DNA of 46,849 bases from assembly GCA_902765595.1 (NCBI GenBank), contig CACXAQ010000008.1, positions 1 to 46,849 on the forward strand. The letters are read 5' to 3'. Positions 38,065 to 44,381 of this stretch are shown one piece after another. The position numbers were made by a program, and so were the translations under genes. The notes below the pieces were generated by a model. The model did not search any database. It worked only from the letters and a program-made list of their open reading frames with translations, and had not been told where the DNA came from. The DNA comes from Oscillospiraceae bacterium. Its GTDB lineage: Bacteria; Bacillota; Clostridia; Oscillospirales; Oscillospiraceae. Each line of letters starts with the position of its first letter. Position 1 is the stretch's first letter.

Positions 38065-38967
38065 TTACCGATCCAGCCAGCGGCAGGCGGCCAGGGCCGC
38101 CACGGCGCCGTCGGCAGCGGCGGTGGTGAGCTGGCGCACAGCCTTCTTCCGGCAGTCGCCCGCAACGAAAAGCCCCGCCGTGGGGGTGAGGCAGTCCTCC
38201 CCCGCGTCGGCGTAGCCCGCGGCATCCCGGCTCAGCCAGGGGGCAAAGGCCTCCAGATCCGGCCGGTGGCCGATGGCCACGAAAAGCCCCTCCACGCCGA
38301 TCTCCCGGCGCAGGCCGTCCTGCTCCACGGCGATGCCGCTGAGCTCGTCCCCGCCCAGGAGCTCGGTCACCGAGGCGTTCAGCACGAACTCCACGTTCTC
38401 CCGCTCGCGCAGGGCGTCCACCAGCTTCTGCTCGCCCCGGAAGGAATCCCGGCGGTGGATGAGGTAGACCCTGGAGCAGCTCTCGCTGAGCAGCAGCGCG
38501 TCCTGCAGGGCGCTGTTGCCGCCGCCGTTCACCGCCACGGCCTTGCCCTTGTAGAAGGCGCCGTCGCAGACCGCGCAGTAGCCCACGCCGCTGCCCACCA
38601 GTTCCTCCTCCCGCGCCACGCCCAGCATCCGGGGACGGGCGCCGGCGGCCAGGATCACAGCTTTGCCGGAAAACTCCGCGCCGGAATCGCAGCGGACGGT
38701 CCAGGTCTCGCCGGTACGATCCAGAGCCACGACTTCCTCCAGCTCCACTTCCGCGCCCTGGGCCATGGCCTGCTCCAGCAGCTTGTCGCCCAGTTCATTG
38801 CCGCTGACGGACACAAAGCCGGGGAAATTCTCCACCCGGGGAGACCAGGTGATCTGGCCGCCGAAGGCGGCCTTCTCGATCACCAGAACGGATTTGCCCG
38901 CCCGGCAGGCGTAGGTGGCGGCGGTGAGCCCCGCGGGGCCGCCGCCGATGATGAGAATGTCGTACAT
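38065..38967 (-). CDS. trxB: thioredoxin reductase
   Basis: A 300-aa FAD/NADPH flavoprotein that reduces thioredoxin-like partners. The FAD motif is IIGGGPAGLTAATYA, the redox centre is CAVCDGAF, the NADPH-binding motif is GGGNSALQDALLL with HRRDSF, and the C-terminal motif is GLFVAGDCRKKAVRQLTTAAADG. The ATG at 38967 follows AAGGAAGTGTGATACT; the extension to 39039 runs through the hairpin repeat and is rejected. It is the last gene after nrdG-nrdD. Because NrdD carries its own thioredoxin-like domain, this enzyme is the obvious electron donor for it (inference). Confidence 0.93.
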   Translation of the reverse strand: MYDILIIGGGPAGLTAATYACRAGKSVLVIEKAAFGGQITWSPRVENFPGFVSVSGNELGDKLLEQAMAQGAEVELEEVVALDRTGETWTVRCDSGAEFSGKAVILAAGARPRMLGVAREEELVGSGVGYCAVCDGAFYKGKAVAVNGGGNSALQDALLLSESCSRVYLIHRRDSFRGEQKLVDALRERENVEFVLNASVTELLGGDELSGIAVEQDGLRREIGVEGLFVAIGHRPDLEAFAPWLSRDAAGYADAGEDCLTPTAGLFVAGDCRKKAVRQLTTAAADGAVAALAACRWLDR

Positions 38968-38987
38968 AGTATCACACTTCCTTATTG

Positions 38988-39090
38988 GCTCCCCCTGTGG
39001 GGGAGCTCCCGCAAAGCGGGTGAAGGGGCTGTTCGTCAACAGCCCCCTCCCGACCTCGTTTTACTCGGCCACCTCCCCCATGGGGGGAGG
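38988..39090 (-). repeat. hairpin-rich repeat element between nrdD and trxB
   Basis: Four hairpins in 103 bp: GCTCCCCC (38988-38995)/GGGGGAGC (38999-39006); CCCGC/GCGGG (39008-39020); GGGGCTGTT (39025-39033)/AACAGCCCC (39038-39046); CCTCCCCC (39072-39079)/GGGGGAGG (39083-39090). It is the kind of dispersed repeat seen in gut Firmicutes. It lies inside the nrdGD-trxB transcription unit; none has a T-run on the minus strand. Confidence 0.85.
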
Positions 39091-39097
39091 CATTGTT

Positions 39098-41491
39098 TTA
39101 CTGGGTCACATACGCCTTGATGGCGCCGGCGCCGGCGATCTTCTCAAAGCCCTCGCCCTTGGGAATGATGAGGGTGGGCGCCTGCTTCACGCCGTACTGC
39201 TTGGCAAGCTCCGGGTGCTCGTCCGCCAGGATCTTGTCGTAGCGGAAGCCGGCCTTGTCCATGTAGGAGCAGGCGATGCGGCAGTTGGGGCAGGTGGCGG
39301 TGGCGAAGAGGATGGGCGTGGGCTCGGCAGCGGGGGCCTTGACCTCCGCGGGCGCAGCCTCGGCGGCCGTCGGCGCGCTCTCTGCGTGGGCGGGCTCGAT
39401 GGGGCCGGTGTGGTGCAGGTGGGAGTGGCCGATGTTATACTCCCTGCGCTCCTTGTACTCCTGGGTCTTGCCCTCGTTCCAGTTCTGCACCGGGCGGTAG
39501 TAGCCGGTGATGCGGCTGTAGACCTCGGCACTCTGGCCGCAGTGGGGGCAGGTGAACTGCTCGCCGTTCAGGTAGCCGTGATCCTTGCAGACGGAGTAGG
39601 TGGGGGAAATGGTGTAGTAGGGCAGGCGGTAGTTCTCCGCGATCTTCCGCACCAGGTTGGCCGCGGCCTGCCAGTCGGGCAGCTTCTCGCCCAGGAAGGC
39701 GTGGAACACGGTACCGGAGGTGTAGCGGGTCTGCAGGTCGTCCTGGATGTCCAGGGCCTCGAACACGTCCTCGGTGTAGCCCACGGGCAGGTGAGAGCTG
39801 TTGGTGTAGTAGGGGGTGCCGCCGGGCTCGGCCGCGGTGATGATGTCGGGGAAGACCTCCACGTCATGCTTGGCCAGCCGGTAGGAGGTGGACTCGGCGG
39901 GGGTGGCCTCCAGGTTGTACAGGTCGCCGTACTGCTCCTGGTAATCGCTCAGCCGCTCGCGCATGTGGTCCAGCACCTGCTTGGTGAACTCCTGGCACTC
40001 GGGATGGGTCATATCGGCCCGGATCCACTTGGCGTTGAGGCCGGCCTCGTTCATGCCCACCAGGCCGATGGTGGAGAAGTGGTTCTCAAAGGTGCCCAGA
40101 TAGTACTTGGTGTAGGGGTACAGGCCCTCGTTGAGGAGCTTGGTGATGACGGTGCGCTTGATCTTCAGGGAGCGGGCGGCCAGGTCCATCAGCTTGTCCA
40201 GACGCTCATAGAAGTCCTTCTCGTCCTTGGCAAGGTAGGCCAGGCGCGGCATGTTCAGCGTGACCACGCCCACGGAGCCGGTGCTTTCGCCGGAGCCGAA
40301 GTAGCCGCCGGACTTTTTCCGCAGCTCCCGCAGGTCCAGACGCAGGCGGCAGCACATCGAGCGCACGTCGCTGGGCTCCATGTCGGAGTTGATGTAGTTG
40401 GAGAAGTAGGGGGTGCCGTACTTGGCGGTCATCTCGAAGAGGAGCTTGTTGTTCTCGGTGGGAGACCAGTCAAAGTCCCGGGTGATGGAGTAGGTGGGGA
40501 TGGGGTACTGGAAGCCGCGGCCGTTGGCGTCGCCCTCGATCATGACGTTGATGAAGGCCTTGTTGACCAGGTCCATCTCGGCCTTGCAGTCGCCGTAGGT
40601 GAAGTCCATCTCCTTGCCGCCCACGATGGCGGGCAGATCCTTCAGGTCGGCGGGCACGGTCCAGTCCAGGGTGATGTTGGAGAAGGGCGCCTGGGTGCCC
40701 CAGCGGCTGGGGGTGTTCACGCCGAAGACGAAGGACTGGATGCACTGCTTGACTTCCTTGTAGCTCAGGTTGTCCACCTTCACGAAGGGAGCCAGGTAGG
40801 TGTCGAAGGAGGAGAAGGCCTGGGCGCCGGCCCACTCGTTCTGCATGATGCCCAGGAAGTTCACCATTTGGTTGCAGAGGGTGGACAGGTGGCTTGCCGG
40901 GGAGGAGTTGATCTTGCCCGGGATGCCGAGACCCTGCTGAATGAGCTGCTTCAGGCTCCAGCCGGCGCAGTAGCCGGTGAGCATGCTGAGGTCGTGCAGG
41001 TGGATGTCGCAGTTGCGGTGGGCGTTGGCGATCTCCTCGTCATAGACCTCGCTGAGCCAGTAGTTGGCGGTGATGGCGCCGGAGTTGGAGAGGATCAGGC
41101 CGCCCACGGAGTAGGTGACGGTGGAGTTCTCCTTCACGCGCCAGTCGGTGACGTTCAGGTACTTGTCCACGGTCTCCTTGTAGTCCAGGTAGGTGGACTT
41201 CATGTTGCGCAGTTTCTCCCGCTGCTTGCGGTAGAGGATGTAGGCCTTGGCCACCTGCTCATAGCCGCCCCGGGACAGGACCGCCTCCACGCTGTCCTGG
41301 ATGTCTTCCACGGCCACCTTGCCGTCCTTGATCTTGCCGAGGAAGTCGGCGGAGACCTTCAGCGCCAGAAAATCGATGACGCTGTCGTTATACTCGGTCT
41401 TGGTGGCGTCGAACGCCTTTTTGATGGCGTCCGCGATCTTGTTGATGTTGAAGTCGACGATCTTGCCGTCTCTCTTTACGACCTGATACAT
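39098..41491 (-). CDS. nrdD: anaerobic (class III) ribonucleoside-triphosphate reductase fused to a thioredoxin-like domain
   Basis: A 797-aa glycyl-radical enzyme that makes dNTPs without oxygen. An N-terminal ATP-cone (~1-95, VVKRDGKIVDFNINKIADAIKKAF) gives allosteric control. The catalytic barrel follows, then a zinc site (Cys635, His638, Cys648, Cys651; CKDHGY, CPHC) and the glycyl-radical loop RITGYYRPVQNWN with Gly663 as the radical residue. An Ala/Pro-rich linker (~688-723) leads to an unusual C-terminal thioredoxin/glutaredoxin-like domain (~724-797) with redox motif CPNC (734-737) and the cis-Pro turn QAPTLIIP. Most class III enzymes lack this domain. nrdG lies upstream and trxB downstream. 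NrdR boxes control the operon. Confidence 0.95.
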   Translation of the reverse strand: MYQVVKRDGKIVDFNINKIADAIKKAFDATKTEYNDSVIDFLALKVSADFLGKIKDGKVAVEDIQDSVEAVLSRGGYEQVAKAYILYRKQREKLRNMKSTYLDYKETVDKYLNVTDWRVKENSTVTYSVGGLILSNSGAITANYWLSEVYDEEIANAHRNCDIHLHDLSMLTGYCAGWSLKQLIQQGLGIPGKINSSPASHLSTLCNQMVNFLGIMQNEWAGAQAFSSFDTYLAPFVKVDNLSYKEVKQCIQSFVFGVNTPSRWGTQAPFSNITLDWTVPADLKDLPAIVGGKEMDFTYGDCKAEMDLVNKAFINVMIEGDANGRGFQYPIPTYSITRDFDWSPTENNKLLFEMTAKYGTPYFSNYINSDMEPSDVRSMCCRLRLDLRELRKKSGGYFGSGESTGSVGVVTLNMPRLAYLAKDEKDFYERLDKLMDLAARSLKIKRTVITKLLNEGLYPYTKYYLGTFENHFSTIGLVGMNEAGLNAKWIRADMTHPECQEFTKQVLDHMRERLSDYQEQYGDLYNLEATPAESTSYRLAKHDVEVFPDIITAAEPGGTPYYTNSSHLPVGYTEDVFEALDIQDDLQTRYTSGTVFHAFLGEKLPDWQAAANLVRKIAENYRLPYYTISPTYSVCKDHGYLNGEQFTCPHCGQSAEVYSRITGYYRPVQNWNEGKTQEYKERREYNIGHSHLHHTGPIEPAHAESAPTAAEAAPAEVKAPAAEPTPILFATATCPNCRIACSYMDKAGFRYDKILADEHPELAKQYGVKQAPTLIIPKGEGFEKIAGAGAIKAYVTQ

Positions 41492-41507
41492 AGCTTTATC
41501 CCTCTCT

Positions 41508-42209
41508 TTATTCTACGCCTCTGACCTGGACGCAGGGCACGATGGGCCGTACCGCGTCCGCCAGGGCGTGCATTTCTTCTCCCGTGAAGGCCCCCAGGCC
41601 CTCGATGGCGATCACATCGCCGGAATCCTTGAATTGCTGCAGGTAGTACTCCTTGGCCCCCTCGATCCATCTGGCGGCCTCCACCAGACTCTCCCGGGTG
41701 TGCAGGCCACGGACCACCGTGGTGCGGAACTCATAGTCCACCTTGCCGGAGAGCAGGTAGTTTTTCGTCCGCTCCACCGGGCTCAGATCGAAGCCGGGCA
41801 CGCCCACGGTCTTGGCGTACAGGGCGGGGGAGTTTTTAATGTCCACCGCTACCCGGTCCACCAGCCCCTCTTCCACCAGAGCCATCAGCCGCTCCGGGAA
41901 GGAGCCGTTGGTGTCCAGCTTCACGTGGTAGCCCAGTGCCTTGACTTTCCGCAAAAACTCGTCGATGTCCCTGTGCAGCAGCGGCTCGCCTCCCGTGACG
42001 GCCACGCCGTCCAGGATGCCCTGCCGCTTTTTCAGAAAGGCCAGGACCGTAGCCTCCCCGTCCGGGTCCCCCTGCATCCGCTCCGGCAGGACCAGAGGGG
42101 CGTTGTGGCAGAAGGGACAGCGGAAGTTGCAGCCGCCGGTGAAGACCGTGCAGGCCACATGGCCGGGATCGTCCAGCAAGGTCAGTTTCTGCAGTCCGGA
42201 AATCTGCAT
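41508..42209 (-). CDS. nrdG: anaerobic ribonucleotide reductase activating protein (radical SAM)
   Basis: A 233-aa radical-SAM activase that makes the glycyl radical on NrdD using S-adenosylmethionine. The 4Fe-4S motif is CNFRCPFC (Cys27, Cys31, Cys34), followed by GVAVTGGEPLLH for SAM binding. The ATG at 42209 has AAAGGGGG upstream; the long frame that continues to 44393 is the reverse shadow of glmS and is rejected. nrdD starts 16 bases after its stop. It is the first gene of the operon, behind a strong promoter with two NrdR boxes. Confidence 0.94.
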   Translation of the reverse strand: MQISGLQKLTLLDDPGHVACTVFTGGCNFRCPFCHNAPLVLPERMQGDPDGEATVLAFLKKRQGILDGVAVTGGEPLLHRDIDEFLRKVKALGYHVKLDTNGSFPERLMALVEEGLVDRVAVDIKNSPALYAKTVGVPGFDLSPVERTKNYLLSGKVDYEFRTTVVRGLHTRESLVEAARWIEGAKEYYLQQFKDSGDVIAIEGLGAFTGEEMHALADAVRPIVPCVQVRGVE

Positions 42210-42273
42210 GGCCGGACCCCCTTTCAAGAAGACAAGCGGGCACGGATGCCCCGCTTTGTTCGCTGCGAGGCCT

Positions 42274-42302
42274 ATGATAGCGCCATCTTGTTGCCTTGTC
42301 AA
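42274..42302 (-). promoter_or_regulatory. promoter of the nrdG-nrdD-trxB operon
   Basis: Minus-strand perfect TTGACA (42297-42302), 17-bp spacer, TATCAT (42274-42279). It lies in the 333-base gap between divergent nrdG and glmS; the NrdR boxes are just upstream of the -35. Confidence 0.82.
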
Positions 42303-42307
42303 GGGGG

Positions 42308-42322
42308 GAACACAAAATATAG
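42308..42322 (-). promoter_or_regulatory. NrdR box 1 (proximal)
   Basis: GAACACAAAATATAG on the plus strand, matching the ACACAAAATATA core of NrdR-binding sites; the second half is degenerate. It starts 6 bases upstream of the -35 box. Confidence 0.7.
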
Positions 42323-42349
42323 AAAGTTTAACCGGGCTGTAACCGGTTT

Positions 42350-42364
42350 GAACACAAAATATAG
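42350..42364 (-). promoter_or_regulatory. NrdR box 2 (distal)
   Basis: An exact copy of box 1 (GAACACAAAATATAG), 42 bp further upstream, i.e. four helical turns, the usual spacing of paired NrdR boxes. A small AACCGG/CCGGTT inverted repeat lies between them. Confidence 0.72.
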
Positions 42365-42366
42365 TG

Positions 42367-42398
42367 CCAGCCGGGATTTTGTTCCCGACTGACACCGT
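42367..42398. repeat. imperfect hairpin between the nrdG and glmS promoters
   Basis: GTGCCAGCCGGGA pairs with TCCCGACTGACAC with two mismatches (32 bases including the loop). Role unclear; it is adjacent to NrdR box 2 and could insulate the divergent promoters. Nothing else is seen between here and the glmS promoter. Confidence 0.55.
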
Positions 42399-42478
42399 TT
42401 GACATTTTACCCGATCTGCCCGTGTTTTGCAAGCCTTTTTGACAAAAAAGATTTTCCTGCGCGCTGCCCATCCCACGG

Positions 42479-42507
42479 TTGCCCTTCCCGGGAAAGCGTG
42501 ATATAAT
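42479..42507 (+). promoter_or_regulatory. promoter of glmS
   Basis: TTGCCC (42479-42484), 17-bp spacer, perfect TATAAT (42502-42507). The ~30-base leader has no room for a glmS ribozyme. Confidence 0.78.
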
Positions 42508-42542
42508 GCATACATGATTTCTGTATAAGGGAGAGTGTCACT

Positions 42543-44381
<1,839 letters not shown>

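Follow-up and report, generated by a model that had tools for sequence, protein, structure and literature searches.

We assume, with a probability of roughly two in three, that an Oscillospiraceae bacterium has a class III ribonucleotide reductase (RNR, NrdD) of the double-Cys, Glu type with a built-in reductant, in which electrons would pass from a thioredoxin reductase (TrxB) to a redoxin domain fused to the C-terminus of NrdD, and from there to the active-site cysteines. The gene lies in the row nrdG-nrdD-trxB (38065-42209, minus strand) of contig CACXAQ010000008.1, of which positions 1 to 46,849 (46,849 nucleotides; the window) were analysed. Each round of ribonucleotide reduction would oxidise C175 and one finger-loop cysteine (C380 or C381) to a disulfide, which the C-terminal redoxin (C734/C737) would reduce, a flexible linker some 40 residues long bringing it to the active site of either its own chain or the partner chain in the dimer; TrxB encoded by the adjoining gene would then re-reduce the redoxin, here probably with NADPH. 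Class III reductases provide DNA precursors in strict anaerobes, and to our knowledge only a few of them have had their electron donor, formate or a thioredoxin system, measured. Here the donor apparently lies within the polypeptide, and the enzyme seems to be the sole RNR of the organism. Two or three purified proteins would allow a direct test of the proposal, which also bears on how gut Clostridia couple DNA synthesis to their redox state.

Organization of the nrdG-nrdD-trxB locus

The original prediction, made from the DNA letters alone, had placed nrdG before and trxB after nrdD, and this order was confirmed, with all three genes on the minus strand; its outer limits, 38065 and 42209, coincide with the last position of trxB and the first of nrdG, respectively (Table 1). 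The spacing is 16 nt between nrdG and nrdD and 130 nt between nrdD and trxB, the latter being occupied by a repeat that has 12 matches in the genome including itself, mostly partial, and a folding z of -6.5. An Rfam search of positions 41400-42700 gave no match.

Table 1. Features of the nrdG-nrdD-trxB locus in the window (residue numbers are those of NrdD)
Feature	Position	Strand	Description or basis
Promoter-like site, 5' of nrdG	42274..42302	-	TTGACA-17-TATCAT, 11/12, consensus match only
nrdG	41508..42209	-	Radical-SAM activase of NrdD, 233 aa; TIGR02495 NrdG2, 189 bits (cutoff 131)
nrdD	39098..41491	-	Class III ribonucleotide reductase with fused redoxin, 797 aa
ATP-cone, residues 3-92	41216..41485	-	PF03477, E 1.5e-21
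NRDD catalytic core and glycyl-radical domain, residues 121-685	39437..41131	-	PF13597, 640 bits, E 4e-192
Finger-loop motif M379-C380-C381-R382	40346..40357	-	Aligned to T. maritima SCCR; M, C, C kept in 68/68
Glu528	39908..39910	-	Counterpart of T. maritima Glu495 (proposed proton donor); 68/68
Gly663, glycyl-radical site in RITGYYRP	39503..39505	-	Alignment to T. maritima NrdD; 68/68
Ala/Pro-rich linker, residues 686-724	39320..39436	-	Poorly conserved; pLDDT <50 at 701-722
Fused redoxin domain, residues 725-797 (73 residues)	39101..39319	-	Grx/Trx HMM matches, AlphaFold2, PDB fold matches
Redox motif C734-P-N-C737	39281..39292	-	Both Cys in 68/68; read in DNA
Pro772 (QAPT), taken as cis-proline	39176..39178	-	Invariant in 68/68
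nrdD-trxB gap	38968..39097	-	130 nt, filled by hairpin-rich dispersed repeat
trxB	38065..38967	-	Low-molecular-weight thioredoxin reductase, 300 aa; CAVCDG, GGGNSA, HRRDSFR

Catalytic residues of NrdD

The NRDD domain, the glycyl-radical motif and the adjoining cognate radical-SAM activase identify the protein as a class III NrdD, and residues 1-687 match the equivalog NF006126/PRK08270 with 1135 bits (cutoff 548). Conservation was assessed in an alignment of 68 fused proteins, made up of the window NrdD and 67 of 80 fused loci from named genome records, the other 13 being near-copies, one sequence cut at a contig end, or proteins with lengths outside 770-830 aa. C175, M379, C380, C381, E528 and G663 are invariant in all 68, G663 being the glycyl-radical site that had been predicted. 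The mean frequency of the top residue is 0.90 in the core, 0.77 in the ATP-cone, 0.59 in the redoxin and 0.27 in the linker; the last was rightly described as Ala/Pro-rich in the window protein and is poorly conserved across the 68, its length between positions 685 and 727 ranging from 15 to 60 residues (41 in the window NrdD). Similarity to T. maritima NrdD is modest (139 bits over residues 152-685), and phmmer aligned C175 with Cys125, M379-R382 with the SCCR motif at 328-331 and E528 with Glu495, the column named as proton donor in passages of PMC9669993. These are residues that papers tie to the use of thioredoxin, which argues for the built-in reductant. The double-Cys finger loop M379-C380-C381 together with E528 fits the NrdD2 subtype as defined in the part of PMC4493059 consulted, by a third Cys and a Glu, with Met present too in some members. 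Double-Cys enzymes that contain this Met are apparently equipped for either formate or thioredoxin, according to passages of PMC9669993.

The fused redoxin domain

Past residue 685, the sole invariant residues among the 68 aligned proteins are C734, P735, C737 and P772, which stand beside a fast-changing linker and, together with the redoxin fold and motif, favour a built-in reductant. The extra C-terminal domain with CPNC and a cis-proline in QAPT, as originally predicted, is thus upheld by profile searches, by AlphaFold2 and by this invariance. When the domain, predicted at about 724-797, was cut out and searched against redoxin families, it exceeded the gathering threshold of Glutaredoxin PF00462 (25.0 bits against 22.9; 20.8 bits within the full protein) and nearly reached that of Thioredoxin PF00085 (23.4 against 23.5; 19.0 within the full protein), but it stayed below the cutoffs for thioredoxin proper (TrxA; TIGR01068, 21.5 bits against 96.8) and for NrdH-redoxin (TIGR02194, 17.6 bits against 85.75), for which the fold alone fits. 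PF00462 is matched at E <= 0.01 by all 68 aligned members. The AlphaFold2 model of the isolated domain (pLDDT 93.2) has a Grx/NrdH-like thioredoxin fold with the element order E-H-E-H-E-E-H, in which a first strand precedes CPNC, the CxxC starts helix 1 and the conserved Pro precedes strand 3. Thus the earlier label "thioredoxin-like" holds for the fold, while the domain is shorter than thioredoxin and closer to the glutaredoxin, NrdH and MJ0307 types. The GST and KaiB entries among the fold matches share the thioredoxin fold only and were set aside. The full-length NrdD, modelled with an alignment of 68 near relatives, reached a mean pLDDT of 73 and gave no usable information on docking.

Distribution and evolution of the fusion

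A scan of named genomes gave at least 593 relatives, and in the best 80 of these, chosen by their likeness to the fused query, all 80 frames run into a CPxC redoxin, one of them (L091) being then cut by the contig end. Within the order, at least 111 of 345 genomes, that of the window included, have a match extending from the start of NrdD into the redoxin, with pieces not counted; such matches occur in 15 of the 26 families sampled, or in 16 if one family represented by a piece is included. At the level of the phylum, the unfused enzyme, of about 700 aa and 48-56% identity, is commoner among the matches listed. In a tree of 47 cores, 36 fused proteins and three close unfused ones are split from eight distant unfused ones with support 100/100. 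Fused NrdD is therefore one clade, common among gut Clostridia, which also speaks for the built-in reductant. Four genomes that appeared to carry a different tail proved to be ordinary: G278, G255 and G338, where the search match ends at 690, have CPNC fusions, and G891 has a fused NrdD.

The unfused G066 and G202 form a pair whose sister is a fused member of the same genus (99/98), which is most simply explained by loss of the domain there; the unfused G675 also falls inside the clade and is weakly placed. The fused or unfused state changes three times on the 47-core tree, two of the changes being forced by well-supported branches. The proteins that lost the domain retain MCCR, and those of G066 and G202 retain the Glu too. 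Since the simplest account is at least one loss of the domain within the clade, with MCCR and the Glu retained, the core can live without the redoxin. Three loci of close relatives without redoxin (L112, L113 and L144) have MCCR intact and no trxB in the available flank, and in L112 nrdG is divergent to nrdD.

In the locus L151 (G581:C12), the finger loop of the fused NrdD is MYCR, with one Cys only, and the redoxin motif is CVNC; the same genome also has an unfused NrdD of 51% identity; the fused NrdD of G581 may be of the formate type or degenerate.

Intein-like inserts were seen by eye in the NrdD of L146 (G691:C7), L147 (G744:C28) and L148 (G613:C110), which start with Cys and end with HN, features that we take to be marks of an intein. 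They interrupt the catalytic MCCR finger loop after its Met and before its double Cys, and that of L147 is far shorter and mini-intein-like. Judged from split matches, G936, G621 and G768 have such inserts in NrdD too.

Linkage with trxB and types of TrxB

For 72 of the 80 fused loci at least 1000 bp of downstream sequence was available, and trxB follows on the same strand in 57 of these 72 (51 within 400 nt and six at 400-2500 nt), while it was not seen in the available flank of the remaining 15. The survey of co-occurrence suggested in the original prediction therefore came out in its favour, with no trxB in the available flank of the 11 unfused loci (eight distant, three close), and this association likewise supports the built-in reductant. 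Among ten further fused loci, chosen for a short search match, low identity or being the genus mate of a loser of the domain, one (L114) has trxB; three of the ten belong to one genus, and L135, whose contig is as long as that of L050, is probably the same record as the latter. Because trxB was not seen in the available flank of these 15 of 72 and was seen in one of the ten, the link between the fusion and trxB is strong, not universal. In addition, 73 of 78 fused loci have nrdG no more than 500 nt upstream.

The TrxB of the window matches TIGR01292 over its full length (residues 2-298) with 310 bits, under the cutoff of 343, and its closest PDB sequences are thioredoxin reductases. Its motifs are CAVC at 131, GGGNSA at 148 and HRRDSFR at 171, the last being of the NADPH type. 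In passages of PMC5627308 and PMC6262447 the HRR motif is connected with NADPH binding, and NADH, F420 or unknown donors are assigned to reductases without it; judging from the motif, the window TrxB probably uses NADPH. The same does not hold for its counterparts throughout: in 59 TrxBs adjoining nrdD (58 on L032-L111, plus L114), 19 carry HRR and 40 have in its place a stretch resembling Q[ND]L..[LF]T, the difference falling at the site of the NADPH 2'-phosphate. The predicted supply of NADPH electrons through TrxB thus suits this locus, but 40 of the 59 neighbouring TrxBs lack the motif. We would put forward, as a tentative idea that is less likely than not, that the clade in gut Clostridia consists of self-reducing class III RNRs with an obligate built-in redoxin and a neighbouring reductase in two cofactor types (HRRxxxR, for NADPH; QNLxxLT, for another donor, perhaps NADH or ferredoxin), which would couple dNTP synthesis to different electron pools. 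The two types of reductase and the relatives that lost the domain offer natural comparisons.

Genome context and alternative electron routes

The window's genome, which is 84% complete, contains one NRDD gene and gave no match for a class I or II large subunit, so NrdD seems to be the sole RNR found in it. It likewise gave no match for pyruvate formate-lyase (PFL; profile TIGR01255); having a single RNR and no PFL in this genome is consistent with the built-in reductant. PFL was also not found over the cut-off in the four genus mates of the family sample, all of which carry fused NrdD. Across 250 genomes of the family, PFL exceeds the cut-off in 9 of 89 with a fused-clade NrdD, compared with 30 of the other 161 (Fisher p = 0.10). 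Among those 89, the match extends into the redoxin in 80, of which eight have PFL, while the unfused G066 and G202 have two PFL genes each; the post-hoc comparison of 8/80 with 2/2 gives p = 0.014, which we discount because these two genomes represent one loss event. A second set of 73 hand-picked genomes (57 of the 111 full-length order genomes, G278, G255, G675, G891, G066 and G202, and ten fused genomes from other orders) was searched at E <= 1e-200, and PFL exceeds the cut-off in 41, namely 39 of 70 other fused genomes and two of three unfused ones, with fragments below the cut-off in three more fused genomes; the unfused G675 gave no match at this threshold. The frequency of PFL in the fused genomes of this second set means that absent formate does not explain the fusion, and the idea that the fusion replaces formate as a general rule was dropped. 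Moreover, M379, which is used by formate-type enzymes, is kept throughout the alignment, so the formate route may still work. On both counts the expectation that formate would be dispensable is not supported as it stands, nor is the corresponding one for a free thioredoxin, since the genome encodes one.

It is conceivable, and in our view rather unlikely, that formate is the main reductant while the fused redoxin is auxiliary, keeping the finger-loop cysteines reduced or readying NrdD for glycyl-radical formation. The invariant Met379, the PFL genes of the 39 fused genomes and the doubled PFL genes of G066 and G202 would fit this, as would the activation of the E. coli class III RNR by thioredoxin that is cited in a passage of PMC4390871; yet the thioredoxin-type Glu528 and double Cys are just as invariant, neither the window's genome nor any of the four sampled genus mates with fused NrdD gave a PFL match exceeding the cut-off, and for the unfused G675 there was no PFL match that reached the threshold applied. 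Improbable to a greater degree is that the fused domain acts as a relay, comparable to the pair of C-terminal cysteines in class I and II reductases, with electrons going from TrxB through a free thioredoxin to the fused redoxin. The genome does encode a free thioredoxin of about 110 aa elsewhere (G000:C4:146137, 114 bits), besides further thioredoxin-like matches, and one clear TrxB, with one weaker relative; against this, trxB as a neighbour goes with the fusion, no further match to the thioredoxin family occurs on the window contig, and the CPNC redoxin could itself be a direct substrate of TrxB, as NrdH is. That the domain plays no role in reducing ribonucleotides, being a passive passenger or acting on some other disulfide substrate, is hardly credible, for despite its loss inside the clade and linkers shortened to a minimum of 15 residues in some members, CPxC and Pro772 are kept in 68 of 68 proteins while the linker drifts, and the fusion is associated with trxB.

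We return to the route from TrxB over the fused redoxin to the active-site cysteines, against which the invariant Met379, the frequent PFL, the loss of the domain, the loci without trxB and the MYCR/CVNC protein of G581 have to be weighed. The single-polypeptide, redoxin-dependent enzyme of the original prediction is supported in its fused redoxin, its double Cys with Glu528 and the tracking of the fusion by trxB, but the Met is kept and the use of formate is possible. Computation thus establishes the fusion and its fold, the invariant redox residues, the thioredoxin-type active site, the single clade and the linkage to trxB, while the disulfide exchange, the docking, the electron donor and the predominance of this route are inferred.

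Comparison with known systems

The thioredoxin-using NrdD2 of Neisseria bacilliformis was reportedly described by Wei et al. in 2014. As far as the consulted passages of PMC4493059 and PMC9669993 go, the reductant of this class III RNR is the thioredoxin system, and the enzyme (T. maritima homologue 4u3e/4coi) shares with the window NrdD the double-Cys finger loop, the active-site Glu and the beta-A Cys; however, the N. bacilliformis/T. maritima type has a separate thioredoxin and SCCR without Met, whereas the window NrdD has a fused redoxin and MCCR. NrdH-redoxins (4fiw, 1h75) differ from the window redoxin in that the latter is fused, has the motif CPNC and scores far below the NrdH-redoxin cutoff given above. 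The class I Grx-ATP-cone-NrdB of Facklamia ignava also joins a redoxin to an RNR subunit, and according to passages of PMC6187632 its fused redoxin efficiently reduces the holoenzyme by a dithiol mechanism; unlike the window NrdD, it is an N-terminal fusion to the radical subunit and is fed by glutathione. The same passages name a grx::nrdD fusion in one Lachnospiraceae strain, TWA4, in which a Grx-type domain is fused to NrdD as here and which is possibly a member of the same clade; they give no mechanism, neighbours, distribution or domain order for it. This was the sole mention of an NrdD-redoxin fusion found in our search of open-licence literature, as far as the texts were available, and the parts of PMC9531940, PMC11226230 and PMC12288474 consulted name no fused NrdD. 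A large NrdD-redoxin clade with a linked reductase of two types and loss of the domain was not found described in that search. Thus, thioredoxin-driven class III enzymes and fusions of this general kind are already known, and the contribution of this analysis is that NrdD-redoxin forms a clade that is both large and conserved, whose linked reductase comes in two motif types and which includes a natural loss of the domain.
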